A program made the position numbers and the translations under genes. Positions 21,535-47,562 of a stretch of 64,000 nt of DNA are shown piece by piece. Source of the stretch: Flavobacterium sp. (lineage in GTDB: Bacteria; Bacteroidota; Bacteroidia; Flavobacteriales; Flavobacteriaceae); NCBI RefSeq assembly GCF_027490375.1, contig NZ_JAIXYH010000040.1, positions 62,001-126,000 of the forward strand, read 5' to 3'. The notes under the pieces are model-generated. The model worked only from the letters and a program-made list of their open reading frames with translations. It searched no databases and was not told the origin of the DNA. Every line of letters begins with the position of its first letter. The first letter of the stretch is position 1.

Positions 21535-23313
21535 ATGAAAAAAATTGTTTTTTACACCTTACTTGCTCCACTGCTGTGTTTTTCTCAGCAACAATCCTTG
21601 CAGCGTGTATGGGGAACCTATTTTGGTGATGAGCGTTACAAACTCGAAGATTCAGTTGTTGATAGGGCTGGAAATTTATATTTAGTAGGATTGATAACCA
21701 GTAACGTCGATACAGCGCCCGTGTTTGCGTCTGATGTTTACCAATCTAATTACGGCGGCGGTTTTTCCGACGGATTTATTGCAAAATTCAACAACCAAGG
21801 TCAACTGTTATACATTACTTATTTTGGCGGAGTTGGCGATGACGTAGTTTCTTGTATCGATTTTGATAACAGCAATAACATATATGTAGCCGGCTTCACG
21901 GATAGTGAAACACAGATTGCAACGGCAACGGCTTTTCAAACTAATAAGAGCGCATTGAACGACCTATTTGTTGCAAAATTCAATGAAGAAGGATTGTTGC
22001 AATGGAGTACTTATTACGGCGGAAATGGAAACGACGGCAGCAGTCTTTTTCTTACCTTATCGATGGGAATAGATTCTAATCGAATTCAACTCGCGCACGA
22101 CGGAGCTAATCATTTTTATGCTTTTTGTGAAACAACGAGTTCCAACATGGGAACTGCCAATACTTTTCAACCCACAAAGGAAAATGCAAATTTTTTAATT
22201 GTAAAGTTTTCAAATGATGGCATCCCACAGTGGTCAACTTATCATGGTTTTAACGAAAACAATCAGCTCACTGCAATTAAGGCTAACGAGGAAGCAGTTT
22301 ATCTAAGTGGCCAGATAAGAGAATGCGTGCCAGATAATATTCCAAACACCTATTATGCTACACCTAATGCTTTTCAGCCGACTAGAGCTAGTTGTCAAGA
22401 TTTATTTCTAACTAAGTTTGACACCAATGGCCAACGCCTTTGGAGTACATATTATGGCGGTAATTCACTCGACTTAGTATCAGATCGTTCAATTGATGTA
22501 AGAAACAATGCCATTTACTTTGCAGGCCAAGGTTTAGATCAAGCACTCGCCACATCTGATACCTTTCAAGAAACTCCAAGTGTTGATTTGCTTACTCCTT
22601 TTCTGGTGAGATTTAACGAGCTGGGAGAAAGAATCTGGGGAACTTTTAACGGAACAACTTTCAATCAGACAGGCGCAACAGCTTCTAATTCAGGACACGT
22701 AAAAATCGATAATGAAAACAATTTAATTTTCAGCGGAACGGTTGGTTTGAATGCAAACGTTGCTCAAGGCCAAGCATTTCAGACGTCTCTAAATGGAACT
22801 CTTGACGGATTTTTAGCAAAGTTCGACGAAACAGGTCAGAAAATTTGGGGCACGTATTATGGCGGAAATAATACTGAAATTGCAATGATTGCCCATCCAT
22901 TCGGCGAAAATGTATTCGTTGTCGGTGAATCAAATAGTATCACAGGTTTAGCAACAACGGGCGCAATGCAACCCAATCTAACCCTTTTTGATCCAAGTAG
23001 TTCAGAAACCAATTTTAATATTTTCATCGGTTATTTAACACCAATTCCACTGTCCACCAACGAAAATCAAGAGCTGTCCTTTGAAATGATACCTAATCCC
23101 AGTGCTGGGAATACGATTATCCGTTTGCCCTCCAACGTAATCAATTCAGCGAATGTGACGATTTTTGACATATCAGGAAAAACAATCTACGAAAGTACAA
23201 CCCAAAACGAAGAACTGCGCGTGCAGCTTGATGGCCTTTCTAGTGGTGTTTATTTTGTGAAAGTAGCTACTGATAATACTGCGGTAGTCAAAAAATGGAT
23301 TGTAAAAAATTAA
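21535..23313 (+). CDS. SBBP-repeat beta-propeller protein with T9SS sorting domain, paralogue
   Basis: 592 residues and colinear with the preceding gene over its whole length. It shares the opening RVWGTYFGDER, the same repeat units and the same C-terminal sorting domain (EMIPNPSAGNTIIRL ... GVYFVKVATDN). The signal peptide is MKKIVFYTLLAPLLCFSQ. The pair arose by tandem duplication and has diverged widely while keeping repeat number. It ends at the second copy of the identical terminator. As a T9SS substrate it should be surface-exposed or secreted. Confidence 0.85.
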   Translation: MKKIVFYTLLAPLLCFSQQQSLQRVWGTYFGDERYKLEDSVVDRAGNLYLVGLITSNVDTAPVFASDVYQSNYGGGFSDGFIAKFNNQGQLLYITYFGGVGDDVVSCIDFDNSNNIYVAGFTDSETQIATATAFQTNKSALNDLFVAKFNEEGLLQWSTYYGGNGNDGSSLFLTLSMGIDSNRIQLAHDGANHFYAFCETTSSNMGTANTFQPTKENANFLIVKFSNDGIPQWSTYHGFNENNQLTAIKANEEAVYLSGQIRECVPDNIPNTYYATPNAFQPTRASCQDLFLTKFDTNGQRLWSTYYGGNSLDLVSDRSIDVRNNAIYFAGQGLDQALATSDTFQETPSVDLLTPFLVRFNELGERIWGTFNGTTFNQTGATASNSGHVKIDNENNLIFSGTVGLNANVAQGQAFQTSLNGTLDGFLAKFDETGQKIWGTYYGGNNTEIAMIAHPFGENVFVVGESNSITGLATTGAMQPNLTLFDPSSSETNFNIFIGYLTPIPLSTNENQELSFEMIPNPSAGNTIIRLPSNVINSANVTIFDISGKTIYESTTQNEELRVQLDGLSSGVYFVKVATDNTAVVKKWIVKN

Positions 23314-30355: not shown

Positions 30356-30957
30356 TATTCTCAAATTGTGTCGGCACAAAAGAACGAAAATTTAACCGAA
30401 AGCCGTTTACCTAAGCGTTAATTCGCGTGTTCGAATTTTTTGGCCGTTGCGGCGCAGCAAACTTCTTCCCAACCAACGTTCTGTTAGGCGCCGCCGCGCT
30501 TTCCGCTTTAGCACCAATTACCGGCAGCGGGCGTCAGGGGCTTTCAACGGGCTCTCGGTGTCGCCGTTTTCAGCCACTTCCGCCAACGCCGCCAACAATC
30601 GGTGCTGCCGCTTCAATCGCTAACGGATTGGCCTCCCAAACCCAAAATCGTGCAAAGCAATCGCTTCTATATTTCTTCGTCAAAAACATACAAGTGTCAT
30701 TAACTTGTAATTTTTGAAACTATTCTTACTCTTAAAATTCATTCTTAAAGCTATTTTTTACCTCAACATTTCCTTTACAACAGCAAAATTCAAACGCAAC
30801 CGTTGCTCGTTGCCAAATCGCCGAAAATCAGCAGTAATAAGGCGTTCGCAAACGTTTTCGCCTGCAAAAAACCTGTATAGTTTTTATATAGGAATGCCTT
30901 AGATCGTAAAACTCCTTTTGTATTCTACATTTGTTTCAAACATCAAAACAACATTCT
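30356..30957. other. Intergenic region with GC-rich segment and possible promoter
   Basis: Bases 30427-30660 are unusually GC-rich (GGCGCCGCCGCG runs) and resemble the interior of the family B elements; the 96-aa ORF there (30427-30717) is low-complexity and probably not a gene. TACATTTG at 30926-30933 fits a -7 element for the 30958 gene, but no convincing -33 box sits at the right distance. TTCGCAAACGTT (30845-30856) recurs inverted before susC. Confidence 0.45.
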
Positions 30958-33345
30958 ATGAAAAAAATTACCCTTTATTTTACTGGATTGTTAATTTCTT
31001 GTGGCTTTTCTGCGCAAGCTGTTAACTTTCCTGTTAAATCGAGCGCTCCTCTAGACGGAACGCCCACGCAAGCTGCTCCAACTCCTGAGTTTCCAGCTGC
31101 AAACGTAATTTCTCTTTTTAGCAACGCCTATACAAACGTACCAGTAGATACCTGGCAAACATCGTGGTCGGTTGGTGTGCTCACTGAAACGCAAATTGCT
31201 GGGAACGACACCAAACAATACAACAACGTATCGTTTGTGGGTATCGAAACCATTGCCAGCCAAATCAACATTAACAACATGTTGTATTTACACATGGATA
31301 TTTGGACACCAAACATGACTACGTTCCGTGTGAAATTAGTCGACTTCGGTCCAAATGCCATTTTTGGCGGCGGCGACGATACCGAGCACGAACTTATCTT
31401 TAATCCAACCTTAAACGGCTGGAATACTTTAAACATTGATCTAGCAAATTTCACAGGATTGCAAAACCGCAACAATATCGCACAGTTGATTATTTCGGGC
31501 TTGCCTGCTGGACAAGGAACTGTTTTTGTAGACAATGTTTTCTTTCACAACGTTGCTACTAGCACGCCACAAGAACCAACAGTTGCCGCAGCAACTCCTA
31601 CACGTTTGGCGGAAAATGTCATTTCACTTTTCAGCAACACGTATAACAATGTACCTGTAGACACGTGGCAAACGTCTTGGTCGGCTGGCGTTGTATCAAA
31701 CTTTGCTGTGGAAGGAAACGACATTAAAAAGTACGAAAGTTTAAATTTCGTTGGCATCGAAACCGTAGCAAATCAGATCGACGCAACAGAAATGCTCTTC
31801 TTCCACATGGATATTTGGACACCAAACATGACGACATTTCGCGTCAAACTCGTAGATTTTGGTGCCGATGCTGCTTTTGGTGGAGGAAACGACACAGAAC
31901 ATGAGCTTACTTTTACCCCAAATCAGTCGGGTTGGGTAGCTCTAGAAATTCCGATGGCCGATTTCGTTGGGCTTACCACCAGAGAACACATCGCACAGAT
32001 AATTTTATCGGGAACTCCGGTAGGACAAGGAATTGTTTTCGTAGACAACGTTTATTTCCATAAAGAAGGTGTTGTGGTTCCGGTAGAACCTACCGTTGCA
32101 GCACCTACACCAACACGTCCGGCACAAAACGTAATTTCAATGTTTAGCAACGCATACACAAACGTCCCGGTTGATACGTGGCAAACCTCTTGGTCGGTTG
32201 GAACCGTTTCCGATGTACAAATCGAAGGAAACGATACCAAAAAATACGACAACTTAAACTTTGTAGGTATTGAGACTGTTAACAACCAAATCAACGCCAC
32301 ATCTATGTTGTACTTCCACATGGATATCTGGACACCTAACATGACATCTTTCCGTATTAAATTAGTTGATTTTGGTGCAGATGGTGCGTTTGGTGGCGGT
32401 AACGATACGGAACACGAAATTACTTTCACACCAGCACAAGCAGGTTGGGTGAGCTACGAAATTCCGTTAAGCGACTTTTCTGGACTCATCAATAGAGCAA
32501 ACATTGCACAATTAATCTTGTCGGGAACACCGTCTGGAAGCGGAATTGTCTTTGTAGACAACGTATATTTCCACAACGTAGCTGTTGTCGATCCGAATGT
32601 ACCTGCAGTGGCAGCAAACACTCCTGATGTTGATCCAGCTTTAGTACAATCTATGTTCTCAGAAAGCTACACAAATCTTTCTGTAGATACTTGGAAAACC
32701 TCGTGGTCGGCAGCTAATTTTCAGGATGTTGAAATCGCTGGAAATCCAACCAAAAGATATACTTCACTAGATTTTGTAGGTATTGAAGCTACAACAGATC
32801 CGATCGATGCTTCGCAAATGAATTACTTCCACATCGATGTATGGACACCAAACATGACGGCTTTCCGCATCAAGTTAGTAGATTTCGGTGCAAACGGTAC
32901 TTTTGGTGGTGGCGACGACGTTGAGCACGAATTGAGCTTCACACCGACACAATCACAATGGAATACGTACACTATTCCGCTAAGCGACTTTACTGGTCTG
33001 GTAACTCGTTCGAATATTGCACAACTAATCTTGTCGGGTAATCCAACTGGACAAGGTATTTTGTTTGTAGATAACGTATTCTTCTCTGCTATTCCGTTAA
33101 GCGTTAACGCTCCTGAACAAACCAGACTTTCGCTTTATCCAAATCCGGTTAACGACGTGCTTCAAATTTCGACAGCAGAGCCAGTAACACGTATGGAAGT
33201 GTACAACAGTCTTGGTCAATTAGTTTTCGAGAACAAAGGCGCTGCACTTACACAAATTAACACAGCAGCTTGGACTGTAGGAACGTACATTGCAAAAATT
33301 CAGATTGCAGATCAAACGATTACGCGTAAAATCGTAAAAAAATAA
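30958..33345 (+). CDS. T9SS-secreted protein with four 171-aa CBM-like modules
   Basis: 795 residues. A signal peptide (MKKITLYFTGLLISCGFSAQA) is followed by four tandem modules beginning near residues 49, 220, 391 and 562, an exact period of 171. Each has the pattern SLFSNxYTNVPVDTWQTSW, NFVGIET, DIWTPNMTxFRVKLVDFG, GGGxDxEHEL, IAQLIxSG and VFVDNVYFH, which looks like a beta-sandwich carbohydrate-binding module. Residues about 715-795 (LSLYPNPVNDVLQI ... TITRKIVKK) form a T9SS sorting domain. The surface lipoprotein at 41196 carries two modules of the same kind. With no catalytic domain, it is probably a multivalent beta-glucan-binding surface protein; that role is inferred. Confidence 0.8.
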   Translation: MKKITLYFTGLLISCGFSAQAVNFPVKSSAPLDGTPTQAAPTPEFPAANVISLFSNAYTNVPVDTWQTSWSVGVLTETQIAGNDTKQYNNVSFVGIETIASQININNMLYLHMDIWTPNMTTFRVKLVDFGPNAIFGGGDDTEHELIFNPTLNGWNTLNIDLANFTGLQNRNNIAQLIISGLPAGQGTVFVDNVFFHNVATSTPQEPTVAAATPTRLAENVISLFSNTYNNVPVDTWQTSWSAGVVSNFAVEGNDIKKYESLNFVGIETVANQIDATEMLFFHMDIWTPNMTTFRVKLVDFGADAAFGGGNDTEHELTFTPNQSGWVALEIPMADFVGLTTREHIAQIILSGTPVGQGIVFVDNVYFHKEGVVVPVEPTVAAPTPTRPAQNVISMFSNAYTNVPVDTWQTSWSVGTVSDVQIEGNDTKKYDNLNFVGIETVNNQINATSMLYFHMDIWTPNMTSFRIKLVDFGADGAFGGGNDTEHEITFTPAQAGWVSYEIPLSDFSGLINRANIAQLILSGTPSGSGIVFVDNVYFHNVAVVDPNVPAVAANTPDVDPALVQSMFSESYTNLSVDTWKTSWSAANFQDVEIAGNPTKRYTSLDFVGIEATTDPIDASQMNYFHIDVWTPNMTAFRIKLVDFGANGTFGGGDDVEHELSFTPTQSQWNTYTIPLSDFTGLVTRSNIAQLILSGNPTGQGILFVDNVFFSAIPLSVNAPEQTRLSLYPNPVNDVLQISTAEPVTRMEVYNSLGQLVFENKGAALTQINTAAWTVGTYIAKIQIADQTITRKIVKK

Positions 33346-33402: not shown

Positions 33403-33560
33403 ATAAAAGCACTTATAATCAAACATTTGAATTTTAATTAGTGTCTTTTTCTTACAATTTTTTATAGTCTCGTTTTAACTGTCGAACTTTAATTGTTGTG
33501 TGCAGTACGAAATCGCTGTAGTTGCTGTATTTTTATCACAAGCTTTCTTTAATTTGCACT

Positions 33561-36410
33561 ATGCCCAGAATAAAAATTTCGCTGAATTCAAATAGCCATG
33601 TTCAAAAAAGCCTAATCGGGCTTTTGCTTTTTGGACTGTTTTCGTGTACTGTATTTGCGCAAGAATTACCACCAATTGTTCCGTATAGCCCGAAGTTATA
33701 CAACGCCGGGAATCAAAACTGGATGATCGATCAAGATGCGCAGAAGCGTTTATTCTTCGCAAATAACGAAGGCTTGCTGGAGTTTACGGGCGCTTCTTGG
33801 AATTTGTATCCTTCGCCAAACGAAACCATAATTCGTTCAGTAAAAGTAATCGACGGACTCATATACACGGGCTGTTATATGGAATTTGGGTATTGGAAAC
33901 GAGAAGCAACCGGAATATTAAAATACCACTCGTTAAGCGCACCAATCCGAAAATACCTTCTCGACGACGAGCAATTCTGGAATATTTTACAATATCAAGA
34001 CTTTGTGCTGTTCCAGTCGTTAAGTCGGATTTACATCTATCAAAAATCGACGCGCAAGTTTAAAATCATTGCACCTAAAGAACAAATATTAAAGGCTTTC
34101 AATACCGGAAGCAATCTGTATTATCAAACCACTACAGGGAATTTATACGAAATCGAAAACGCCAAAAGCAAGCTTATTTCGAACGACCCGAAAATTAAAA
34201 CCAATAAAATTGTTCGTATCGAGAAGAAAGGCGAAGCGCTGGTTATTCTTACACAACTAAACGGGTTTTTAACGCTGTATCAAGGAAAAGTATTTGCCAG
34301 TAATTTTCCGGTAAATGCGCTACTGCAAGCCAGCAGTGTGTACAGTTCGCAACATTTGAAAAACGGCGGCTCGGTTATTGGCACCGTATCCGATGGGATT
34401 ATTATTCTAAATCCGGATTACAGTGTACAATTTCACATCACACAAGCACTCGGCTTGAGCAATAATACCGCTTTATCACTCTTTGAAGATCACGACAAAA
34501 ATGTATGGGTAGGTTTAGATAACGGAATTAACTGTATTAATTTACAGTCGCCGGTAAAAAGTTATAGCGACCGGTCAGGATTGTTAGGAACGGTTTATAC
34601 TTCCGAGCTGTATCAAGGAATTCTCTACGTAGGAACCAACCAAGGATTGTTCTGCAAGAAATGGAACAGTGGCGAATCATTCCGCTTTGTGGCAGGAACG
34701 AAAGGCCAAGTCTGGAACTTGTTTGCCTACGCCGGAAGTTTGTTTTGCGGTCATGATTCAGGGACGTTTCTTATAAAAGATGCGGTGGCTACTCCCATTT
34801 TTAGCCAATCGGGTACATGGAAGTTTGCTGCCGTTCCCAATAACCCCAATCTGCTGCTGCAAGGTAACTACTATGGTTTATCTGTTCTAGAAAAGACCAC
34901 TACCGGCTGGCGATTTCGTAATAAAATTGCCAAGTTCGATTATTCTTCTAAAAATTTCGAACTCGCCGGACCAAACCAAATCTATGTCTCACACGAATAC
35001 AAGGGAATTTTTAGACTAGAAGTAGATGCTGCTTTGACAAAATCTACAAACGTATTCACCTACGATCAACCAAAAAAGGGAAAGAACGCGGGTTTGATAA
35101 AATACCAGAATCAAATTTATTACGCGAGTAAAAACGGTATTTATAAGTTAAATCCGCAAACAAAGAGCTTTGCTCGAGATCCATTTTTTAGTCAGATTTT
35201 AGATAAAGACGAGTATACATCGGGAAAGTTAATCGTTGATAAAACCAACAAACTTTGGATGTTTACAAAAAATTACATCCATTACTTTACCGTCGGAAAA
35301 TTGAGTAATAAGTTGGAATTTAATTTTATTCCGATTTCAGCAACGCTTACCAATTCGATGTTGGGATACGAAAATGTCACACAAATTTCGCCTTCTTCGT
35401 ACCTAATTGGAACTACCGACGGATATTACACCTTAAACATTGATGATTTAAGTTTCAGCAATCATCCGGTGGCAATTACCTATGTTTCGAATTACAAGCA
35501 AAACGAACGCGAACAATTTGTTTCGGTAACGGAGGAAGGTTCCTTTTCTCACGATCAAAATAATCTGATGTTTAGTTATGCCGTTCCGGAATTCAATAAG
35601 TATATAAATGCAGAATACCAATTTGCGCTTAAAGGATTTCAAGACAATTGGAGTAAGTGGAGCAGCAAATCGGCTACTGGTTTTAAAAACCTGGAGCCAG
35701 GAACCTACACATTTATGGTTCGAGCAAAAATTGCTAATTCAAAACCTGCTAACGTGGCTCGGTATACCTTTACCATCTTAAAACCTTGGTACGCCACCAA
35801 TCTAGCATTGTTTATTTACTTGATACTAGGCATTTATTTAGGATTCTTTATTCACAAAAAGTACAAACGTTATTACCAAAACCAGCGTGAAAAACTCATT
35901 GAAGAAAACAATTTATTGCTAGAAATCAAAGAGTTAGAAAACGAGCAACAGCTCATGAAGCTTCGTAACGAGCAATTGGCAAAGGACGTAGACAACAAAA
36001 GTAAAGAGCTTGCCGTATCTACGCTTACTCTGATTCAAAAGAATGAACTCTTGGCATTAATAAAGGAAGATTTGAATAAAACTTCTGCAGGCGATGCCAC
36101 TCGTGGTGTAAAGAATGTAATTTCTAAAATCTCTAAGAATATTTCTGAAGACGACAATTGGAACGTTTTCAGAGAGGCATTCGACAGTGCTGATAAAGAT
36201 TTCTTAAAGAAAATAAAGCAGGCTCATCCAGCACTTACACCAAACGATCTACGCTTATGTGCGTACTTACGATTGAATTTATCGTCGAAAGAGATTGCTC
36301 CTTTGCTGAATATTTCGGTTCGCAGTGTAGAGATAAAGCGATATCGTTTGCGTAAAAAAATGGATTTGCCGCATGAGCAAGGCTTGGTGGAGTACATATT
36401 GTCGATTTAA
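33561..36410 (+). CDS. Membrane-spanning one-component regulator (propeller, Y_Y_Y, LuxR HTH)
   Basis: 949 residues from the ATG at 33561. A signal-anchor is followed by a periplasmic region of propeller-type repeats (about 40-660; for example DHDKNVWVGLDNGINCI), a Y_Y_Y domain (about 665-740), a membrane helix (about 746-768), a coiled coil (about 775-830) and a C-terminal LuxR-type helix-turn-helix (LTPNDLRLCAYLRLNLSSKEIAPLLN). There is no histidine kinase or receiver domain, so it should sense a ligand outside and bind DNA directly from the membrane. It lies immediately upstream of the SusC operon on the same strand and is the likely regulator of the glucan locus. Confidence 0.85.
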   Translation: MPRIKISLNSNSHVQKSLIGLLLFGLFSCTVFAQELPPIVPYSPKLYNAGNQNWMIDQDAQKRLFFANNEGLLEFTGASWNLYPSPNETIIRSVKVIDGLIYTGCYMEFGYWKREATGILKYHSLSAPIRKYLLDDEQFWNILQYQDFVLFQSLSRIYIYQKSTRKFKIIAPKEQILKAFNTGSNLYYQTTTGNLYEIENAKSKLISNDPKIKTNKIVRIEKKGEALVILTQLNGFLTLYQGKVFASNFPVNALLQASSVYSSQHLKNGGSVIGTVSDGIIILNPDYSVQFHITQALGLSNNTALSLFEDHDKNVWVGLDNGINCINLQSPVKSYSDRSGLLGTVYTSELYQGILYVGTNQGLFCKKWNSGESFRFVAGTKGQVWNLFAYAGSLFCGHDSGTFLIKDAVATPIFSQSGTWKFAAVPNNPNLLLQGNYYGLSVLEKTTTGWRFRNKIAKFDYSSKNFELAGPNQIYVSHEYKGIFRLEVDAALTKSTNVFTYDQPKKGKNAGLIKYQNQIYYASKNGIYKLNPQTKSFARDPFFSQILDKDEYTSGKLIVDKTNKLWMFTKNYIHYFTVGKLSNKLEFNFIPISATLTNSMLGYENVTQISPSSYLIGTTDGYYTLNIDDLSFSNHPVAITYVSNYKQNEREQFVSVTEEGSFSHDQNNLMFSYAVPEFNKYINAEYQFALKGFQDNWSKWSSKSATGFKNLEPGTYTFMVRAKIANSKPANVARYTFTILKPWYATNLALFIYLILGIYLGFFIHKKYKRYYQNQREKLIEENNLLLEIKELENEQQLMKLRNEQLAKDVDNKSKELAVSTLTLIQKNELLALIKEDLNKTSAGDATRGVKNVISKISKNISEDDNWNVFREAFDSADKDFLKKIKQAHPALTPNDLRLCAYLRLNLSSKEIAPLLNISVRSVEIKRYRLRKKMDLPHEQGLVEYILSI

Positions 36411-36650: not shown

Positions 36651-39600
36651 ATGAAATCAAGAATCTATTTATTCGCACTAGTCTTATGGGCTTTTGGTTT
36701 ACAGGCGCAGAATATCAATATTCAGGGTACTGTAAGCGAAGCGTCATCTGGGCTGCCTCTTCCGGGTGTTAGTATCTCGGTTGGAGGAACCGCTACCGCA
36801 GCAACTGATCTCGACGGAAAGTATCAACTTAATAATCTTGCAGCAGGGCAAACTGTTCAATTTAGCTATGTAGGATTTCAAAACTTTTCAATAACGGTAA
36901 GTAAGAGCGGAACTTTTGACATTAAACTTCAGGAGGCGGTGAATGCACTTGAAGAAATCGTAGTTATTGGATACGGTGAAAAGAAACGAAAAAATGTGAC
37001 GGGTTCAGTAGCAGTAATAAGCGCTAAAACCATCGAAGATTTAACGCCTTTTAAAACGGAACAGGCATTGCAGGGAACCGTTGCTGGTGTAACTGTTACA
37101 CAACAATCGGGTGCACCGGGCGCGGGCTTGGACATTCGAATTCGAGGTGTAGCAACGAACGGTAATGGTGCACCTATTGCTATTATTGATGGGTATCAGG
37201 GCGACTTGAGCTTGCTTAATCCGTCCGATATTGAATCGTTGACGGTTTTGAAAGATGCGGCAGCGGCAATTTACGGAACTATTGGTGCAAATGGTATTAT
37301 CTTAGTAACCACTAAGAAAGGAAAGAAAAATGCCAAACCAACTTTATCGCTGAATACTTTTACAGGTTTTCAGGAGACAACAAGAAAGCTGCCGTTATTA
37401 AATGCAACTGAGTATGCACTTTTAACAAACGAAAGTTATGCAAACGGGGGGCAACCAGTACCTTTTCCAAACGTAAGTAATTTAGGGACTGGTACCAATT
37501 GGCAAGACCAAGTATTCGATACTTCACCTATTCGAAATACCGATTTCTCAATTAAAGGAGGTAGTGAAAAAATATCATACATGTTTAGCGCCTCCGATTT
37601 TACACAAGAAGGTATAGTGGGTCGCGAAAAGTCTGATTTTAAAAGAAATACAGCTCGCCTACAACTCAGTGCAGACTTATCTTCGAAGCTAAAGTTAAGC
37701 ACCAACGTAATATACACGTACATCGACCGAGACTCATTCAATGAAAACGGTCTTGGTTCTGTTTTATTTAATGCGGTTAACGCAGATCCTACTTTGTCTG
37801 TATTCAACGCAAACGGCGATTTCAATCCAATTCCGAGCACTCCCGGCTATGGCATCGAAGTCATAAACCCTGTTCAACAACTCGCAAACACATTCAACGA
37901 TTATAAGCTTAAAAAACTAAATGGAAATTTTGAACTTAATTATTCGATTATAGACAACCTTCTTTTAACAGGACGAGTTGGTTTTAATACTGTAAACAGC
38001 CGTGGCCGTGTCTTCAATAAAGAGGTCGATTACGGCGGGAAAGTCTTTGACATTGAAAGAAGCAGCGTCAATCAAAATGCTATAGAAGATAACGACTATA
38101 CATTCGACTTCTTTGGAGCTTATAATTTTAACATCAACTCTGAGCACAATTTCAAAGCAACAGTTGGCACAACTATTTTTAAACAATACGGAAACGGATT
38201 ATTCGCAACCGGCTTCGATGTGCCAAACAACAGTTGGGAGTTTGCAGATATTTCTTTAGCTATTGGAACCAGTCCAGATGGCGGGCGAGATGTAGGATCG
38301 TATGCATACGACGAAAGACGTCTTTCTTACATTGGGCGTTTAGAGTACGATTACAAAGACAGATACCTTTTTTCTATGATGTTTAGAAGAGATTTATCGT
38401 CAAGATTTGGAAGAAGTAATCAAGTAGCGAACTTCCCATCTGTTACAGCGGGCTGGAAAATCTCCGAAGAGTCTTTCTTTCCTAAAGAAGGAAAAATTAA
38501 CTTCTTGAAAATGAGAATAAGTTACGGAGAACTAGGGAACGACGCCATAGGTAGTAACTTGTTTGCAGGTTCGCTGTCGGGCGAAGCAACTTACGTTATC
38601 AATGGTGTATTGGTGAATGGACGAGCCGTTGGAACGCTTCCAAACCCAAATGTTGCTTGGGAAGAAGCGAGAAAGTTCGACGTTGGTTTCGATATAGAAG
38701 CTTTTAAGAACAGACTTCAAATAACAACAGATTATTTTATTGACACACGCGCAAATTTATTAATTGGAAATATTCCGGTTTCGGGTATTACCGGTATTTA
38801 TGCGCCAGGATCGGGATCTCCAACGGTAAACGCCGGTTCTGTTCGCAATTCAGGTTTTGAATTCGCGTTTAATTATAATTCTTCCTCGGATAAGGCATTT
38901 CGATATAATTTCGGATACAATGTAGCTTTTATCAAAAACGAGGTCTTGGAAGTGAATAACCAAACTAGATTTTTAGAAACGGGTTCATTCGGAGTAGGAC
39001 AACCATTTATTTCGAGAATGCAAGAAGGGCAAGTATTAGGCGCGTTTTTTGGATACCAAACCGACGGAATTTTCCAAAATCAAGCTGAAGTAGATGCACA
39101 TCCATCACAACTCGCTTTAGGAGCAGAAGCGGCGCCTGGAGATCTTCGATACAAAGATTTAAACGGCGATGGCGTTATCAATTTAGAAGACCGTACGTTT
39201 ATAGGAGACCCAATTCCAGACGTTACAATGGGTTTCAATGTGGGATTCAATTATAAAAACTTCGATTTCACAGCAAATGCCTTTGCGTCAATCGGACACG
39301 ATATGGTAAGAAACTATGAAAGAGTTCTAGCTAATATGAACCGTTTAGATTACGTTTTAGATCGTTGGACTGGCGAAGGAACCAGCAACACCGTGCCTCG
39401 GGTAACCACTGGAGCATCAGGAAACAATGTGTTCTCCGACTATTTCGTAGAAGATGCTTCATTTTTGAGAATTCAAGCTATCCAATTAGGTTATTCACTC
39501 CCTCCAAAATTTGCTGAAAGTATCGGATTTACAAAATTTAGACTCTACGGAGCTGTAAACAATGTATACACCTTTACTAAATATAAAGGGTTTGATCCTG

Positions 39601-39695
39601 GTGCAAGTTCAGGTGCGCCTATTGGAGGAGGAATTGACAACGGCTTCTATCCTGTACCACGTACGTATATGCTAGGTTTAAATCTTAATTTTTAA
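36651..39695 (+). CDS. susC: SusC-family TonB-dependent receptor
   Basis: 1014 residues. After a signal peptide (to about residue 21), a carboxypeptidase-regulatory-like domain (QGTVSEASSGLPLPGVSI) is followed by the plug domain with LKDAAAAIYGTIGANGIILVTTKKG, the SusC signature, and a 22-strand-type barrel ending in TYMLGLNLNF. It forms the outer-membrane importer with the SusD encoded 11 bases further on. The surrounding GH16 and GH3 genes indicate beta-1,3-glucan oligosaccharides as the substrate. Confidence 0.95.
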   Translation: MKSRIYLFALVLWAFGLQAQNINIQGTVSEASSGLPLPGVSISVGGTATAATDLDGKYQLNNLAAGQTVQFSYVGFQNFSITVSKSGTFDIKLQEAVNALEEIVVIGYGEKKRKNVTGSVAVISAKTIEDLTPFKTEQALQGTVAGVTVTQQSGAPGAGLDIRIRGVATNGNGAPIAIIDGYQGDLSLLNPSDIESLTVLKDAAAAIYGTIGANGIILVTTKKGKKNAKPTLSLNTFTGFQETTRKLPLLNATEYALLTNESYANGGQPVPFPNVSNLGTGTNWQDQVFDTSPIRNTDFSIKGGSEKISYMFSASDFTQEGIVGREKSDFKRNTARLQLSADLSSKLKLSTNVIYTYIDRDSFNENGLGSVLFNAVNADPTLSVFNANGDFNPIPSTPGYGIEVINPVQQLANTFNDYKLKKLNGNFELNYSIIDNLLLTGRVGFNTVNSRGRVFNKEVDYGGKVFDIERSSVNQNAIEDNDYTFDFFGAYNFNINSEHNFKATVGTTIFKQYGNGLFATGFDVPNNSWEFADISLAIGTSPDGGRDVGSYAYDERRLSYIGRLEYDYKDRYLFSMMFRRDLSSRFGRSNQVANFPSVTAGWKISEESFFPKEGKINFLKMRISYGELGNDAIGSNLFAGSLSGEATYVINGVLVNGRAVGTLPNPNVAWEEARKFDVGFDIEAFKNRLQITTDYFIDTRANLLIGNIPVSGITGIYAPGSGSPTVNAGSVRNSGFEFAFNYNSSSDKAFRYNFGYNVAFIKNEVLEVNNQTRFLETGSFGVGQPFISRMQEGQVLGAFFGYQTDGIFQNQAEVDAHPSQLALGAEAAPGDLRYKDLNGDGVINLEDRTFIGDPIPDVTMGFNVGFNYKNFDFTANAFASIGHDMVRNYERVLANMNRLDYVLDRWTGEGTSNTVPRVTTGASGNNVFSDYFVEDASFLRIQAIQLGYSLPPKFAESIGFTKFRLYGAVNNVYTFTKYKGFDPGASSGAPIGGGIDNGFYPVPRTYMLGLNLNF

Positions 39696-39706
39696 TACGA
39701 ATGATC

Positions 39707-41182
39707 ATGAAAAACAACATAATCTTCCGATCTCTTTTATTCGTCTTGTTGCTTGGAACGATACATTCTTGCAGCGACGACTTCGTTGACCGTAAACCGG
39801 TTTATAATATTGATTCTGAAAATTACTTCAACTCCGAACAAGATTACTATGACGCACTAATTGCGGCATACGACATGCTGCAAAGCACCTACATCAATGT
39901 TATGTTGGGAGAAATCGCCTCAGATAATACCCTATCCGGTGGAGAATCTGCTAACGACGTGATTGGTATTCAGCAAATCGATGAAATGATTCACACACCT
40001 ACTAACAGCAACCTACGCGATATTTGGAATTGGATGTTTGCAGGTGTTAACAGAGCAAGTTATATCCTTGAATTTAAAGACAAAACAGATTTTGAAGGTA
40101 AAGAGCAAATCATTGCAGAAGCTCGATTTTTAAGAGCGTATTACCACTTCGAATTGGTAAAATGGTTTGGTCCGATTCCGTTAAAAGGAGATGCTCGATT
40201 TAGATTAAACGACGAAAAAACAATTCCGCGTTCGCCTGTTGCAGATGTTTATGCTTCGATTGAAGCCGACTTGCAGTATGCCGTGGAGAATTTAAATCCA
40301 GTTGCCCCTCAAGTTGGTCGTGCATCAAAAGGAGCGGCGCAAGCACTTCTCGGAAAAGTATACCTATTCCAAGAAAAATTTGTGGACGCTGCTAATGTTT
40401 TGGATGATCTAATCAGCAGCAACCAATACCAGCTAGTTGCAAACTACAATACAATTTTTGAAAACAACAACGAAAACAACAGCGAATCGGTTTTTGAAGT
40501 ACAGTATTCTGATGCTGAAGGCGCAGGCTTTGGTTGCTTGCAGTGTAGCGAAGGAAACGTAGCAGTAGGATTTAATGGAATCCGAAACTACAGCGGACCT
40601 CTTTTCGATTCAGGATTTAGCTTCAATGTTCCAACACAAGAAGCGTATCAAAGTTATGAAGTGGGCGACAATCGCCGAGATGTGGCTATCTTAAATATTG
40701 TCACTTTTGCTGCTGCAAATAATGCCACCTACGGAACGGGATACAAACACACCGGTTATTTCAACAGAAAATACCTTCCCCGTAAAGGCGATGCAAATAT
40801 CGGCGACCAAAATCTGACAAATCCAAACAATTACAGAGCGATTCGGTACGCAGATGTACTTCTAATGGCTGCTGAAGCCTACAGTAGAGGAGGCATTAAC
40901 GACGCAACGGCTCGTGAATATTTGAATCGTGTAAGAAGAAGAGCTTTTGGTGATAACAACCACGATATTAGCGCTTCAGGTGCAGCATTAACCGATTTTA
41001 TCCTTGCTGAAAGAAGGTATGAACTAATGGGTGAAGGACACCGCTTCTTTGACTTAGTGCGTACTGGAAAAGCTGCCGGAACCATACCCGGATTCGTAGC
41101 AGGTAAGCATGAAATTTTCCCAATTCCGATCGAAGAAATACAATTCGCTAACGGTAATTGGCAGCAAAATCCAGAATACTAA
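39707..41182 (+). CDS. susD: SusD-family glycan-binding lipoprotein
   Basis: 491 residues from the second ATG (39707); the first, at 39701, adds Met-Ile. The lipobox ends at Cys22 (GTIHSC). SusD features are TPR-like helices (AEARFLRAYYHFELVKWFGPIPL), RASKGAAQALLGKVYL and the C-terminal EYLNRVRRRAF, ILAERRYELMGEGHRFFDLVRTG. It caps the SusC barrel and delivers glycan. It is followed directly by the surface glycan-binding protein. Confidence 0.95.
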   Translation: MKNNIIFRSLLFVLLLGTIHSCSDDFVDRKPVYNIDSENYFNSEQDYYDALIAAYDMLQSTYINVMLGEIASDNTLSGGESANDVIGIQQIDEMIHTPTNSNLRDIWNWMFAGVNRASYILEFKDKTDFEGKEQIIAEARFLRAYYHFELVKWFGPIPLKGDARFRLNDEKTIPRSPVADVYASIEADLQYAVENLNPVAPQVGRASKGAAQALLGKVYLFQEKFVDAANVLDDLISSNQYQLVANYNTIFENNNENNSESVFEVQYSDAEGAGFGCLQCSEGNVAVGFNGIRNYSGPLFDSGFSFNVPTQEAYQSYEVGDNRRDVAILNIVTFAAANNATYGTGYKHTGYFNRKYLPRKGDANIGDQNLTNPNNYRAIRYADVLLMAAEAYSRGGINDATAREYLNRVRRRAFGDNNHDISASGAALTDFILAERRYELMGEGHRFFDLVRTGKAAGTIPGFVAGKHEIFPIPIEEIQFANGNWQQNPEY

Positions 41183-41195
41183 AAAAAAAAAGAAT

Positions 41196-42797
41196 ATGAA
41201 AAAAATAGCATCTTTCTTCCTTGTCTTCGCTAGCTTGCTCTTTTGGGCTTGTAGCGATGATTCCGATGTGAATATCGACCAGCTCGATGCACCAAAAGAC
41301 ATTTCTGCGTTGGTAACTATTTCGCAAGACAATTCCGGAAATGTAACTTTCTTGCCGAAAGGAACCGGTGTCAGTCAGTACGAAATTTACTTCGGCGACG
41401 ATTCGACAGAACCCGCTCTCGTGAGCCCAGGTAATACTACAGAGCACACTTATGCCGAGGGAACCTATCAGGCACGAATTGTCGGAGTGGCGCTCAATGG
41501 TAAAAGAACCGAAGTAACTCAAGAAGTTACCGTGTCTTTCGTACAACCCACAAACCTAAACGTAACAATTACTACCGGAGCCAATCTATCGATTACGGTT
41601 CAGGCAGAAGCCGAATTGGAGACTTTCTTTGAAGTAACCTTTGGCGATAATCCTGCTGCAGAGCCGGTTGCTTTCAATCAAGGAGAGACGGTAAGTTACA
41701 CCTATGCCCAAGCAGGAAGCTACACGGTTACTGTAACCGCATTAAGCGGCGGCGCAGCTACAACAACCTATACTCAAACTGTAGTAATTGTTGATATAGG
41801 TACTGCCCCAACGCCAACTCAAGCACAATCGAGTGTAATTTCACTATTCAGTAATACATACACAAATGTACCAGTTGATACCTGGAGAACATCGTGGTCG
41901 CAAGCAAATCTAGAAGAGTTTCAAGTGGATGGTGACGATATTAAGAAATACAGCGCATTGAATTTCGTTGGTATAGAAACCGTTAACAACCAAATCAACG
42001 CTACGGGAATGACGCATTTCCACACGGACATTTGGTCGTCCGACTTTACACAGTTTCGTGTTAAATTAGTTGACTTTGGAGCAAACGCAGCTTTTGGCGG
42101 CGGAGACGATGTGGAACACGAAATAGTAATCGATAATCCAGCTCGCAATCAGTGGGTGAGTTTAGATATTCCATTAAGTTCGTTTACCGGACTCACAACT
42201 AGAGCACACATTGCGCAACTTATTTATGTGGGTCAGCCTGCCGGAAATACAACCGTTTACATTGATAATGTTTATTTCTACAATCAAGGCGGACCATCAA
42301 ATGTTCCTCTAGTAGCTGCTCCAAACCCAACACTGCCGCAAGCAAACGTAATATCCATGTTTAGCGGAGTTTATAACAATGTTCCAGTAGACACTTGGCA
42401 AACTCCGTGGTCACAAGGAACTCTAACCGATGTAACTATCGCTGGAAATGCTGTTAAGCGCTACACGAATCTAAATTTTGTAGGTGTAGAGACCATTGCA
42501 TCGCAAATTAATGCCACTTCAATGACGCACTTTCACGTAGATGTCTGGACACCAAACATGACCACCGTGCGAATCAAACTAGTTGATTTTGGAGCGAACG
42601 GCGCATTCCAAGGTGGCGACGACGTTGAGCACGAGTTAACTTTCACACCAACACAAGCCGGTTGGAACAGTTACGACATTCCGCTATCGCAATTCACAGG
42701 CTTAATCAATCGTGCGCATATTGCTCAATTAATTTTTTCGGGAACGCCTGCGGGCTCCGGAACGCTTTTCGTTGACAACGTTTATTTCCACAACTAA
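41196..42797 (+). CDS. Surface glycan-binding lipoprotein with two 171-aa modules
   Basis: 533 residues from the ATG at 41196; the longer ORF overlaps susD and is unlikely. The lipobox cysteine is Cys19 (LLFWAC). Residues about 30-205 hold two PKD/Ig-like beta domains. Two modules start near residues 214 and 385, again 171 apart, and have the same SLFSNTYTNVPVDTWRTSW and DFGANAAFGGGDDVEHE motifs as the T9SS protein at 30958. Its position after SusD is that of a SusE/SGBP-type protein, which captures glycan at the surface. Confidence 0.85.
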   Translation: MKKIASFFLVFASLLFWACSDDSDVNIDQLDAPKDISALVTISQDNSGNVTFLPKGTGVSQYEIYFGDDSTEPALVSPGNTTEHTYAEGTYQARIVGVALNGKRTEVTQEVTVSFVQPTNLNVTITTGANLSITVQAEAELETFFEVTFGDNPAAEPVAFNQGETVSYTYAQAGSYTVTVTALSGGAATTTYTQTVVIVDIGTAPTPTQAQSSVISLFSNTYTNVPVDTWRTSWSQANLEEFQVDGDDIKKYSALNFVGIETVNNQINATGMTHFHTDIWSSDFTQFRVKLVDFGANAAFGGGDDVEHEIVIDNPARNQWVSLDIPLSSFTGLTTRAHIAQLIYVGQPAGNTTVYIDNVYFYNQGGPSNVPLVAAPNPTLPQANVISMFSGVYNNVPVDTWQTPWSQGTLTDVTIAGNAVKRYTNLNFVGVETIASQINATSMTHFHVDVWTPNMTTVRIKLVDFGANGAFQGGDDVEHELTFTPTQAGWNSYDIPLSQFTGLINRAHIAQLIFSGTPAGSGTLFVDNVYFHN

Positions 42798-42808
42798 GAA
42801 TAAAAATT

Positions 42809-44446
42809 ATGAAAAAGTTACTTTTTAAAAGCTTTACCATTCTCGGCCTATTTTTGTTTTTAGGATGCGAAGAAAATAACAGTTTCGGCGAGTTGACCTC
42901 TCCTGAAAATTTAGCTGTGACGGTAGAAATTATCGGCCAAGACGCTGAAAATCCGAATGGCGACGGTAGTGGATTGGTTAAATTTACCGCAACGGCCGAT
43001 AATGCAATCTCTTATCAATTTGACTACGGAGATGGAGTCAGAGGAACCGTGCCCAGCGGAAGTGTAACTCACGGATATTTTCAACCGGGTGTAAACACTT
43101 ATACAGTAACAATTACTGCCACAGGAACTGCTGGTATTGCTTCTACGATTACCACAGAAGTTACTGTATTTAGTAATTTCCGTGACGATGAAGCAGTTGC
43201 ATTCCTTACAGGTGGAACGCAAAAAACCTGGTATTGGGCAGCGGGAGAACCCGGACATTTAGGTGTAGGACCAAATAACAGCGATGCAACTCAAAACTAC
43301 TTCCCTGTTTACTATGCTGCTGCACCTTTCGAAAAGGCAGGCTCTCCAGACAGTAGCTGTTTGTACGACAACGAATTAACTTTCCGTAAAGACGGCGACA
43401 ACCTTTATTTTAAACTAGACAATGGGGGTAGTACATTTTTCCACGTCTCGTACCAAGGAGTTGGAGGAGGTAGTGCAGGAACCGATTTTTGTTATCCATA
43501 TGCAGTTGTTGACGAAAGAGTTGTGGGTTTGAGTCCATCAAATTCAGCTGTAGTTGCTAATAATGTACCGGGACAAACTCGAGGTACCATGCTTAATTTC
43601 ACAGATGGAGGGTTTATGGGATATTACATAGGTCAAAGCTCCTATGAAATCTTGTCTATAACTGAAAACCGCATGGTAGTACGAGCCGTTATGGGTAATG
43701 ATTCTGGTTTAGCTTGGTATCATATCTTCACGACAACACCGCCCGTACAAGATCCTGTAACAGATTATACAAACCTTGTTTGGTCTGATGAATTTGATGT
43801 TGCAGGAGCACCCGACGCAACCAAATGGGGCTACGACTTAGGTGGTGGCGGTTGGGGTAATAACGAGGTGCAAAGCTACACCAACAACGCGGCAAACGTT
43901 GCAGTTAGCAACGGTACCCTGAAAATCAATGCCTTAAAAACAGGCAACAACTGGACATCAGCACGCCTAAAATCACAAGATAAATTCGAATTTACGTACG
44001 GAAAAGTAGAAGCACGTGCTAAACTTCCCGTAGGCGGAGGTACTTGGCCCGCTATTTGGATGCTTGGCGCAAATTTCCCCGAAGTAGGGTGGCCAAATTG
44101 CGGCGAAATAGATATCATGGAACACCGCGGAAATAGCCCCGGCGTCATCCACGGATCGCTGCACTACCCCGGAAACTTCGGCGGAAACGCAAACACCAAC
44201 ACAACCAACGTAGCCAACGTAAGCTCAGAATTTCACCTCTACAAAGTAATTTGGAGCCCATCTGCGATACGTTTCTATGTAGACGATGTCTTGTTCCATT
44301 CCTTCGCAAACAACAACAGCGTACCGTTTAATAGCGATTTCTTCCTAATCATGAACGTGGCTATGGGAGGAACCTTCGGAGGAACTGTTGCGAACGACTT
44401 CCAAACGGCAACCATGGAAGTAGATTACATCCGCGTTTACCAATAA
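42809..44446 (+). CDS. GH16 endo-beta-1,3-glucanase lipoprotein with PKD domain
   Basis: 545 residues. Lipobox Cys20 (LFLFLGC); a PKD-type domain at about 35-120 (YQFDYGDGVRGTV); a middle beta-rich domain (about 130-310) of unknown function containing four Cys; then a GH16 domain at about 318-545. The catalytic segment GEIDIMEH places the nucleophile Glu433, Asp435 and acid/base Glu438. The tryptophan-rich WPAIWMLG and the ending MEVDYIRVYQ are typical of laminarinases. It is anchored in the outer membrane and makes the first cuts of beta-1,3-glucan. Confidence 0.9.
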   Translation: MKKLLFKSFTILGLFLFLGCEENNSFGELTSPENLAVTVEIIGQDAENPNGDGSGLVKFTATADNAISYQFDYGDGVRGTVPSGSVTHGYFQPGVNTYTVTITATGTAGIASTITTEVTVFSNFRDDEAVAFLTGGTQKTWYWAAGEPGHLGVGPNNSDATQNYFPVYYAAAPFEKAGSPDSSCLYDNELTFRKDGDNLYFKLDNGGSTFFHVSYQGVGGGSAGTDFCYPYAVVDERVVGLSPSNSAVVANNVPGQTRGTMLNFTDGGFMGYYIGQSSYEILSITENRMVVRAVMGNDSGLAWYHIFTTTPPVQDPVTDYTNLVWSDEFDVAGAPDATKWGYDLGGGGWGNNEVQSYTNNAANVAVSNGTLKINALKTGNNWTSARLKSQDKFEFTYGKVEARAKLPVGGGTWPAIWMLGANFPEVGWPNCGEIDIMEHRGNSPGVIHGSLHYPGNFGGNANTNTTNVANVSSEFHLYKVIWSPSAIRFYVDDVLFHSFANNNSVPFNSDFFLIMNVAMGGTFGGTVANDFQTATMEVDYIRVYQ

Positions 44447-44512
44447 AATCCTTTTTAATTATGGCAGACATCGCATTCCAAAAGAATGCTGTCTGCCTTA
44501 TTTTTAAGCAAA

Positions 44513-46804
44513 ATGAAAATAGTAAAATCCGTCATTTGCCTTTCTCTTGCCTTGGGCATGGCCTGCAGTAGTACAGCTCCTGTGGGAACAACGCCAACCG
44601 CAGCGAAAAGTGCAATAGATATAAAAGTTGATTCAGTTTTGAAACTGATGACGCTCCAAGAAAAAGGTGGACAGCTCAATCAGTACAACGGCTTTTACGA
44701 CGTAACAGGTCCAGAACCCAAATCTGGGCAAGCAGCCGAGAAATTAGAACATCTAAAAAAAGGACTTGTAGGTTCAGTTCTAAACATTACCGGCGCCGAA
44801 CAAGTTCGCAACATCCAAAAAATAGTGATGGACAATTCCCGTTTGAAAATTCCTCTTATTTTTGGATTCGATGTCATTCACGGCTTTAAAACTATTTCCC
44901 CCATTCCGCTGGCCGAAGCTGCTAGTTGGGATCTGAGAACCATTGAAAAATCGGCACGAATGGCCGCGGAAGAAGCCTCAGCTGCCGGAATCAACTGGAC
45001 GTTCGCTCCGATGGTCGACGTTTCCAGAGACGCGCGGTGGGGCAGAGTCATGGAAGGATCCGGCGAAGATCCGTATCTCGGAAGTCAAATTGCCGTTGCG
45101 CGCATCAAAGGTTTTCAAGGAACCGATCTCGCCGCAAATAACACCATACTCGCCTGCGCCAAACACTTTGTGGGCTACGGTTTTGCCGAAGCCGGACGCG
45201 ATTATAACAGCGTTGATGTGAGCGAAGCTACACTCGAAAACGTACTCTTTCCCCCATTCAAAGCTTCTGTCGATGCCGGCGTTCGAACCTTTATGAATGC
45301 CTTTAACGACCTGAACGGAGTGCCCGCAACAGCAAGTTCGTATTTGCAACGCGACGTTCTTAAGAATCGTTGGAATTTCTCAGGCGCCGTGGTTTCCGAT
45401 TGGGGCTCGATTATGGAAATGATTCCACACGGATACGCCTCAAACTTATCTCATGCCGCCGAAATAGCCTTAAATGCCGGAAACGATATCGATATGGAAT
45501 CCTACGCCTACGTGAATCATCTCGAAGATTTGGTTAGATCCGGTAAGGTTTCCGAAGAAAACTTAAACGATGCCGTACGACGTGTTTTAAAACTGAAATT
45601 CGAACTTGGCTTGTTCGACGATCCATACAAATACTGCGATGCCAAGCGTGAGAAAGAAGTAACCTTCTCGGAACCCTTGCAGATAATCGCTTTAGACATG
45701 GCTCTGAAATCGGTCGTATTGCTTAAGAACGAACAAAATTTACTTCCCTTACCAAAATCAGGGAAAAGAATTGCAGTGATTGGCGCACTTGCAGCAGATA
45801 AAACCAGTCCGCTCGGAAGCTGGAGAATAGGTGCCAGCGACAATACCGCCGTTTCGTTACTCGAAGGCTTGAAAAACTATCCCAACGCCCAAATTACATA
45901 CGCAAAAGGGGCTGATGTTGCGCTTGGCGAAACCAAATTCGTTTCGGAACTCACCATCAATACGACCGATAAAAGCGGATTTGCAGCAGCAATCGAAACC
46001 GCCAAAAATGCCGATATTGTAGTAATGATGCTCGGCGAACATGGCCTGCAATCGGGAGAAGGACGCAGCCGTTCCGAACTTGGATTGCCCGGAGTTCAAC
46101 AAGAATTACTAGAAGCTGTTTTCGCAGTAAACAAAAGCATTGTGCTGGTATTGCAAAACGGACGTCCTCTAACCATTCCTTGGGCAGCCGAAAATATTCC
46201 AGCAATAGTGGAAGCTTGGCATTTGGGTACGCAAAGCGGAAATGCCATTGCACAAATCTTGTTCGGCGATTTTAACCCGCAAGGAAAACTTCCGATGAGC
46301 TTCCCGCGATCGGTCGGACAACTGCCTTTGTATTACAACGCTAAAAGCACCGGACGTCCGGCTGCTAATGAACCCAACAGCGTATTCTGGTCGCATTACG
46401 GCGATGTTCCCAATACGCCGCAATTTCCTTTTGGATACGGACTCAGTTACACCACGTTCTCGTACAACAACCTCCGCTTAAGCAGCGCCAAATTGACCGA
46501 TTCGCAAAAAATTACTGCCAGTATCGATCTTACAAATACGGGAAAAGTAAGCGGAACTGAAGTCGTACAACTGTACATCCAAGACGAAGTAGCAACCGGA
46601 ACGCGCCCCGTTAAAGAACTTAAAGGTTTTGAATTGGTTACGCTAGCTGCTGGCGAAACCAAATCGGTAACGTTTACCATCGACAAAAAAATGCTTGAAT
46701 TCTTTTCCGCAAACCGCAAATGGGAAACCGAAGACGGCACTTTTAAAATTTATATCGGCACAAATGCACAAACCAATTCGTTTAAAGTTTTAACCGTAGA
46801 ATAA
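44513..46804 (+). CDS. GH3 beta-glucosidase lipoprotein
   Basis: 763 residues from the ATG at 44513. Lipobox Cys18 (ALGMAC). The GH3 TIM barrel (about 40-360) carries the KHFVGYG segment and the nucleophile Asp296 in AVVSDWGS; the alpha/beta sandwich domain (about 370-600) and a fibronectin III-like C-terminus follow. It should cleave glucose from beta-linked oligosaccharides (BglX-like). Being lipid-anchored, it may act in the periplasm on imported products. It shares one base with the next gene (TAATG). Confidence 0.92.
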   Translation: MKIVKSVICLSLALGMACSSTAPVGTTPTAAKSAIDIKVDSVLKLMTLQEKGGQLNQYNGFYDVTGPEPKSGQAAEKLEHLKKGLVGSVLNITGAEQVRNIQKIVMDNSRLKIPLIFGFDVIHGFKTISPIPLAEAASWDLRTIEKSARMAAEEASAAGINWTFAPMVDVSRDARWGRVMEGSGEDPYLGSQIAVARIKGFQGTDLAANNTILACAKHFVGYGFAEAGRDYNSVDVSEATLENVLFPPFKASVDAGVRTFMNAFNDLNGVPATASSYLQRDVLKNRWNFSGAVVSDWGSIMEMIPHGYASNLSHAAEIALNAGNDIDMESYAYVNHLEDLVRSGKVSEENLNDAVRRVLKLKFELGLFDDPYKYCDAKREKEVTFSEPLQIIALDMALKSVVLLKNEQNLLPLPKSGKRIAVIGALAADKTSPLGSWRIGASDNTAVSLLEGLKNYPNAQITYAKGADVALGETKFVSELTINTTDKSGFAAAIETAKNADIVVMMLGEHGLQSGEGRSRSELGLPGVQQELLEAVFAVNKSIVLVLQNGRPLTIPWAAENIPAIVEAWHLGTQSGNAIAQILFGDFNPQGKLPMSFPRSVGQLPLYYNAKSTGRPAANEPNSVFWSHYGDVPNTPQFPFGYGLSYTTFSYNNLRLSSAKLTDSQKITASIDLTNTGKVSGTEVVQLYIQDEVATGTRPVKELKGFELVTLAAGETKSVTFTIDKKMLEFFSANRKWETEDGTFKIYIGTNAQTNSFKVLTVE

Positions 46805-47562
46805 TGAAAACTAAAATTGCAATCTTGATTCTCGCGTGCAGCCTGTCGAGCTTCGCGCAAAAGCGAAAATTAGTTTGGTCGGAAGAATTTAACGGCAAGA
46901 CACTAAACGAAAAAGTTTGGAATTTCGAGCTTGGCGACGGCTGCCCGAACATCTGCGGCTGGGGAAATAACGAAAAACAGTTGTACACCCGCGACAACCA
47001 CGAACTGCGCGACGGAAAACTTGTGATAAACGTAACCAAGAAAGACGACAAATTTTACTCGACCCGAATTACAACGGCTTCTAAAAAGGAGTTCAAGTAC
47101 GGCCGTATGGAAGCGCGCGCAAAAGTGCCTACAGCCATTGGAACTTGGCCTGCTTTCTGGATGTTGGGTGCAAACATTAAACAAGTGGGCTGGCCCAAAT
47201 GTGGAGAGATTGATATTTTGGAGTACGTCGGACGCGCTCCCGGCGAAGTGTTTACTTCTCTGCACACACAGTCGAGCCACGGAAACACCATCAATACTAA
47301 AATTTCAAAAATTGCCGGAATCGATCAAGGTTTTCACGAATATGCTATTGAATGGAACGAAGAATCGATTGCATTTTTCGTCGACGGAAACCACGTGTAT
47401 ACGTATAACCCAGCTGTTAAAAATGAAGATACCTGGCCTTATAATCAGCCATTTTATTTCATTTTAAATGTGGCTGTCGGAGGCAATTTTGGCGGTCCGA
47501 CCATCGATGAAACGGCATTTCCACAAACATTCGAAATTGATTATATTCGGGTATATCAATAA
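46804..47562 (+). CDS. GH16 laminarinase, secreted
   Basis: 252 residues, a bare GH16 catalytic domain behind a signal peptide (MKTKIAILILACSLSSFAQ). GEIDILEY gives Glu135, Asp137 and Glu140 as catalytic residues, and the product ends FEIDYIRVYQ. It lacks the PKD and middle domains of the GH16 at 42809, so the locus has one multidomain anchored and one compact GH16 enzyme. It is the last gene of the operon, translationally coupled to GH3. Confidence 0.92.
   Translation: MKTKIAILILACSLSSFAQKRKLVWSEEFNGKTLNEKVWNFELGDGCPNICGWGNNEKQLYTRDNHELRDGKLVINVTKKDDKFYSTRITTASKKEFKYGRMEARAKVPTAIGTWPAFWMLGANIKQVGWPKCGEIDILEYVGRAPGEVFTSLHTQSSHGNTINTKISKIAGIDQGFHEYAIEWNEESIAFFVDGNHVYTYNPAVKNEDTWPYNQPFYFILNVAVGGNFGGPTIDETAFPQTFEIDYIRVYQ

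Follow-up and report, generated by a model that had tools for sequence, protein, structure and literature searches.

A four-module, T9SS-tailed protein encoded beside a laminarin PUL in Flavobacterium is likely to bind beta-glucan

Laminarin ranks with the largest flows of algal carbon, and competition for it is decided by who captures it first. The window analysed here, a 64,000-nucleotide stretch of Flavobacterium sp. DNA, carries a laminarin-type PUL with its own surface glycan-binding lipoprotein and, directly upstream of the PUL regulator, a gene whose product repeats the module of that lipoprotein four times. What would a cell gain from a second, differently exported protein built from the same module? 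Our analysis suggests that this array protein is probably a secreted, non-catalytic, four-site binder of beta-1,3-glucan (laminarin), accessory to the adjoining PUL. The module, the PUL type and the type 9 secretion system (T9SS) are each already of a known kind; in the openly accessible literature we found no description of a T9SS-exported, enzyme-free, multi-site binder beside laminarin PULs.

The array gene and its product

The array gene is an intact open reading frame (Table 1). Since the Sec leader begins at the ATG at 30958, this codon was taken as the start in preference to a TTG at 30931. The leader reads MKKITLYFTGLLISCGFSA and is followed by Q, in agreement with the Q-rule for signal-peptide cleavage in Bacteroidetes (PMC10653852). 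Reading the leader as that of a lipoprotein, through the sequence LISC at residues 12-15, was considered and dropped, because the Cys is absent from most T9SS-tailed relatives and because the leader fits the Q-rule. The mature protein contains four modules of about 149 residues each, with every start-to-start step equal to 513 bp, or 171 codons; the exact 171-residue period of the original prediction therefore holds at all four starts. Pairwise identity among the modules is 60-77% over about 150 residues, far above chance. A full-length model resolves four separate beta-domains, with a pTM of 0.33, at which the arrangement of the modules is unreliable.

Pfam and NCBIfam scans of the array protein matched its T9SS tail and CBM_11 and returned no catalytic domain, in line with what had been proposed. 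T9SS machinery is encoded in the same genome (GldL, 1.5e-69; SprA, 5.8e-138), and the protein thus combines the features of T9SS cargo: a Sec leader, a sorting domain and a genome that encodes the export system. These sequence features agree with the export route originally predicted, and the type A tail would fit either a cell-attached or a released protein. Elsewhere in the window, two adjacent paralogues of about 600 residues (19577-21385 and 21535-23313) combine repeats that resemble a beta-propeller with a T9SS-like tail; they lie upstream of the gene for the ATP synthase beta subunit.

Table 1. Coordinates of the array gene, the adjoining PUL and a transporter fusion found at related loci
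Feature	Position	Strand	Evidence
Four-module T9SS-exported protein P0001, 795 aa	30958..33345	+	intact ORF
Sec type I signal peptide, probable cleavage A19/Q20	30958..31014	+	sequence, Q-rule
CBM-like module 1	31102..31551	+	module comparison
CBM-like module 2	31615..32061	+	module comparison
CBM-like module 3 (the modelled one; beta-sandwich, CBM11/30/29-like)	32128..32577	+	AlphaFold2, Foldseek
CBM-like module 4	32641..33087	+	module comparison
T9SS type A C-terminal sorting domain	33133..33342	+	TIGR04183 8.4e-15, PF18962 6.2e-12
PUL regulator (sensor repeats, Y_Y_Y-like region, HTH)	33522..36410	+	ORF, sequence, synteny
SusC-like TonB-dependent transporter	36651..39695	+	ORF, sequence, synteny
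SusD-like lipoprotein	39701..41182	+	ORF, sequence, synteny
Surface glycan-binding lipoprotein: PKD region and two modules	41196..42797	+	lipobox-like LFWAC then SDD
PKD and GH16 lipoprotein, laminarinase motif GGTWPAIWMLGANFPEVGWP	42809..44446	+	PF00722 4.3e-28
GH3 beta-glucosidase	44486..46804	+	ORF, sequence
Second GH16, motif GTWPAFWMLGANIKQVGWP	46804..47562	+	sequence
MFS sugar transporter fused to GH17 domain, one polypeptide	L027:4957-7368; L032:3772-6123		

Fold and family of the module

A set of 83 modules, drawn from the window and related loci, was used for AlphaFold2 prediction, and module 3 was predicted as a beta-sandwich with a mean pLDDT of 97.1 and a pTM of 0.91. Foldseek returned CBM11, CBM30, CBM29 and CBM16 as its best solved matches; the structure prediction advised at the outset thus gave a confident model whose nearest solved folds are those of glucan-binding CBMs. 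The top matches were to CBM11 of Clostridium thermocellum Lic26A-Cel5E (PDB 1v0a and 6r3m), at E 8e-7 and TM 0.67, and one matched CBM11 entry is a complex with a beta-1,3-1,4-glucan tetrasaccharide. CBM30 and CBM29 (for example PDB 2c24 and 1gwk) have the same fold, with TM values up to 0.75. Sequence likeness is far lower: the module is only 16% identical to CBM11, which in C. thermocellum belongs to a cellulosomal enzyme, and 12-14% identical to CBM30 and CBM29, with no sequence-level match to either.

The whole array protein passes the curated Pfam CBM_11 test, scoring 37.8 bits against a cutoff of 27 bits that no single module reaches (module 3, 14.6 bits), and 17 of the 83 modules match CBM_11 at E 0.1 or better, the best at 0.0025. 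Since single modules fail this cutoff, we place the module outside CBM11 proper; they lie under every other Pfam cutoff as well, and none could be given a numbered family by this route. Searches of PDB chains with the module profiles gave nothing better than E 0.03. That match, to a discoidin-receptor chain, falls in a kinase-like region, is absent from the best 50 fold matches listed and was taken as chance; the two best PDB matches of the whole array protein correspond to its T9SS tail region. By its modelled structure, the module is a predicted CBM that belongs with the CBM11-like beta-sandwich group and lies outside CBM11 by the curated test. The original statement that it could not be assigned to a numbered family stands for single modules measured against Pfam cutoffs, and gives way where fold and the weak Pfam signal point to this wider group.

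A more precise home may lie in CBM102, a family that Zuehlke et al. (2024) reportedly established from the modules that the binding protein of the Christiangramia forsetii laminarin PUL contains. In Christiangramia portivictoriae (L048), the binding lipoprotein of the laminarin PUL has a C-terminal module that shares 59% identity with the array module, the PUL order is the same, and 10 of 25 Christiangramia genomes carry the module. For these reasons, CBM102 is the likely candidate family.

Genomic setting, relatives and evolution

Laminarin PULs of variant A, a laminarin-induced type known first from Gramella forsetii, contain a GH3 gene framed by two GH16 genes (PMC6298971), and this arrangement, preceded by SusC and SusD, is found downstream of the array gene. 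Both GH16 proteins carry the motif TWPA-W-LGAN---VGWP, which has been tied to beta-1,3-glucanases (PMC11345257). By gene order and motif, the locus beside the array gene is a laminarin PUL of the published variant A type. Over 36875-39575, its SusC gene shares only 68-81% DNA identity, and its product 85% protein identity, with the SusC of pond MAG loci L009 and L012, from a close relative whose other PUL proteins are 95-98% identical to those here, as if one SusC allele had been exchanged for another; phage-driven diversification would be one possible cause.

The modules might instead be directed mainly at mixed-linkage beta-1,3-1,4-glucan, at beta-1,6-branched fungal glucan or at several glucans, with laminarin a secondary ligand. 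The tetrasaccharide in the CBM11 complex is of the mixed-linkage kind, and GH16 subfamily 3 enzymes can also take mixed-linkage glucan as a substrate (PMC7157763). The GH16-GH3-GH16 order, however, is that of laminarin-induced PULs (PMC6298971), and genes for GH17, an enzyme family highly specific for beta-1,3-glucan (PMC6298971), lie near relatives of the array gene. We regard a different preferred glucan as improbable.

The module recurs within the PUL itself. Two copies (41832-42284 and 42345-42794) form the C-terminal end of the surface glycan-binding lipoprotein, with starts 171 codons apart as the original prediction had noted, and they are 53-75% identical to the four array modules. Four repeats without an enzyme, in a module common to another PUL protein, could also suggest a scaffold of the cellulosomal scaffoldin style, in which the modules hold PUL enzymes rather than glycan. 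The predicted fold, however, matches carbohydrate-binding modules, and a Pfam search of the array protein, the lipoprotein and the first GH16 detected neither cohesin nor dockerin; a cohesin/dockerin-type scaffold was rejected on this ground, and we consider any protein scaffold very improbable.

Proteins that join a T9SS tail to between one and five modules are common in Bacteroidota: they were seen in Flavobacterium as well as in MAGs with the labels Crocinitomicaceae, Chitinophaga and Saprospiraceae. At seven further flavobacterial loci (L009, L016, L018, L019, L022, L023 and L068) the array gene again precedes this regulator, with SusC and SusD next in line. The design can therefore no longer be called unusual, as it had been. 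In a sample of the order, the module was carried by 35 of 298 genomes. A Croceivirga locus (L047) joins three modules to a GH16 domain in one polypeptide, and at L027 and L032, where no SusCD is in view, one to three genes separate the gene of the T9SS-tailed module protein from an MFS-GH17 fusion (Table 1), a neighbourhood that supports, as an independent beta-1,3-glucan context, the ligand proposed here.

Other relatives are found in other settings. No match to GH16, GH3, SusC, SusD or the regulator was obtained in 22 of the 58 longer module loci, many of which encode single-module T9SS proteins and two of which (L027 and L032) have GH17; the module may thus also serve other roles or glycans. 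Among ten genes near the module protein at L020, L029, L078, L081 and L083, Pfam recognized one MFS transporter only, and at the Crocinitomicaceae locus L035 its matches were confined to housekeeping genes and one protein with a VIT domain. The genome that contains the window encodes a second T9SS-tailed protein on another contig (C79; L007:451-2148, an open frame of 566 aa), with remote modules scoring 43 and 14 bits and relatives at L050 and L102. Two modules near GH16 genes were also seen in a MAG labelled Opitutales, of the Verrucomicrobiota (L058:9782-11941), and reflect either inter-phylum transfer or a binning error.

T9SS cargo includes adhesins besides enzymes. A cell-anchored array could accordingly attach the cell to beta-glucan-rich surfaces such as algal or fungal walls and detritus, rather than capture nutrient as such, and multivalency and the single-module relatives away from PUL genes would fit this role. 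Against it stand the conserved place of the array gene immediately before the regulator and SusCD of the laminarin PUL, and the sharing of its module with the glycan-binding lipoprotein of the PUL. An adhesin is in our judgement unlikely, and it heads the alternatives, ahead of a different glucan and, last, a protein scaffold.

Between the array modules, dS ranges from 1.5 to infinite, near saturation, at a dN of 0.17-0.37, which indicates that the copies are old and were kept by selection rather than produced by recent amplification. Compared with its orthologue from the pond MAG (L009), the array gene has a dN of 0.011 and a dS of 0.144; it is under strong purifying selection. In a tree of the modules, several deep nodes of which are weakly supported, grouping tends to follow protein and lineage, which suggests that arrays expanded separately in each lineage. 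The two kinds of array may also recombine. In Flavobacterium aurantiibacter TH167 (L008:9809-11989), the T9SS gene is fused to the lipoprotein gene within module 3, so that T9SS modules 1 and 2 are followed by a mixed module 3, with the switch near L008:11180, and by the last module and stop of the lipoprotein. Regulator, SusC and SusD are absent at the junction, no close SusC or SusD was found in the TH167 assembly, where full-length matches reached 33% at best and the best pieces of SusD 32-36%, and its GH3 gene has an in-frame stop. This looks like a natural loss of the PUL by recombination between two module arrays, in a contig that ends about 70 bp past the fused gene, where misassembly is possible.

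Proposed function and comparison with known systems

We favour a secreted laminarin binder on the following grounds: the T9SS tail, the CBM fold and the CBM_11 match, together with a variant A PUL whose GH16 proteins bear the beta-1,3-glucanase motif; the presence of the module in the PUL lipoprotein, in a GH16 fusion and near GH17; and the conserved place of the gene upstream of regulator, SusC and SusD, with purifying selection. The protein would be exported by Sec, lose its signal peptide and then leave through the T9SS. Each module, with its predicted beta-sandwich, may bind a stretch of laminarin, and four such sites on flexible linkers would provide avidity. Held on the cell or released from it, the protein could gather laminarin close to SusD, to the GH16 at the surface and to the lipoprotein with two modules; of this lipoprotein it would be a T9SS-exported counterpart with twice the number of modules. 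A broader proposal, which we put forward tentatively and hold to be rather less probable than not, is that such proteins form a second class of glycan-binding protein in Bacteroidota PULs, T9SS-exported, multivalent and non-lipidated, built from the same CBM as the lipoprotein kind (the surface glycan-binding protein, SGBP) and possibly released for distant soluble laminarin. If true, this would contradict the view that soluble laminarin is captured solely by membrane-anchored surface parts.

Like a canonical SGBP, the array protein is non-catalytic, multi-domain and PUL-linked. A canonical SGBP, however, is a surface-anchored lipoprotein encoded beside SusD, a description that fits the 41196-42797 product as the true SGBP of this locus and is unmatched by a protein with a T9SS tail, a type I leader and a gene upstream of the regulator. 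The SGBP-B proteins of Bacteroides beta-1,3-glucan loci (PMC7157763) are likewise non-catalytic glucan binders, encoded in PULs with SusCD and GH3 and in some cases GH16; they are surface proteins predicted to be lipidated, and none is among the best 50 fold matches listed for the module. A close parallel is the PUL of C. portivictoriae, in which regulator, SusC, SusD, binding protein, GH16, GH3 and GH16 follow one another as they do here, and whose binding protein also has no catalytic domain. It is lipidated by type, includes PKD among its several beta-domains and has a smaller number of strong module copies, whereas the array protein is T9SS-exported, carries four near-equal copies without PKD and is encoded upstream of the regulator.
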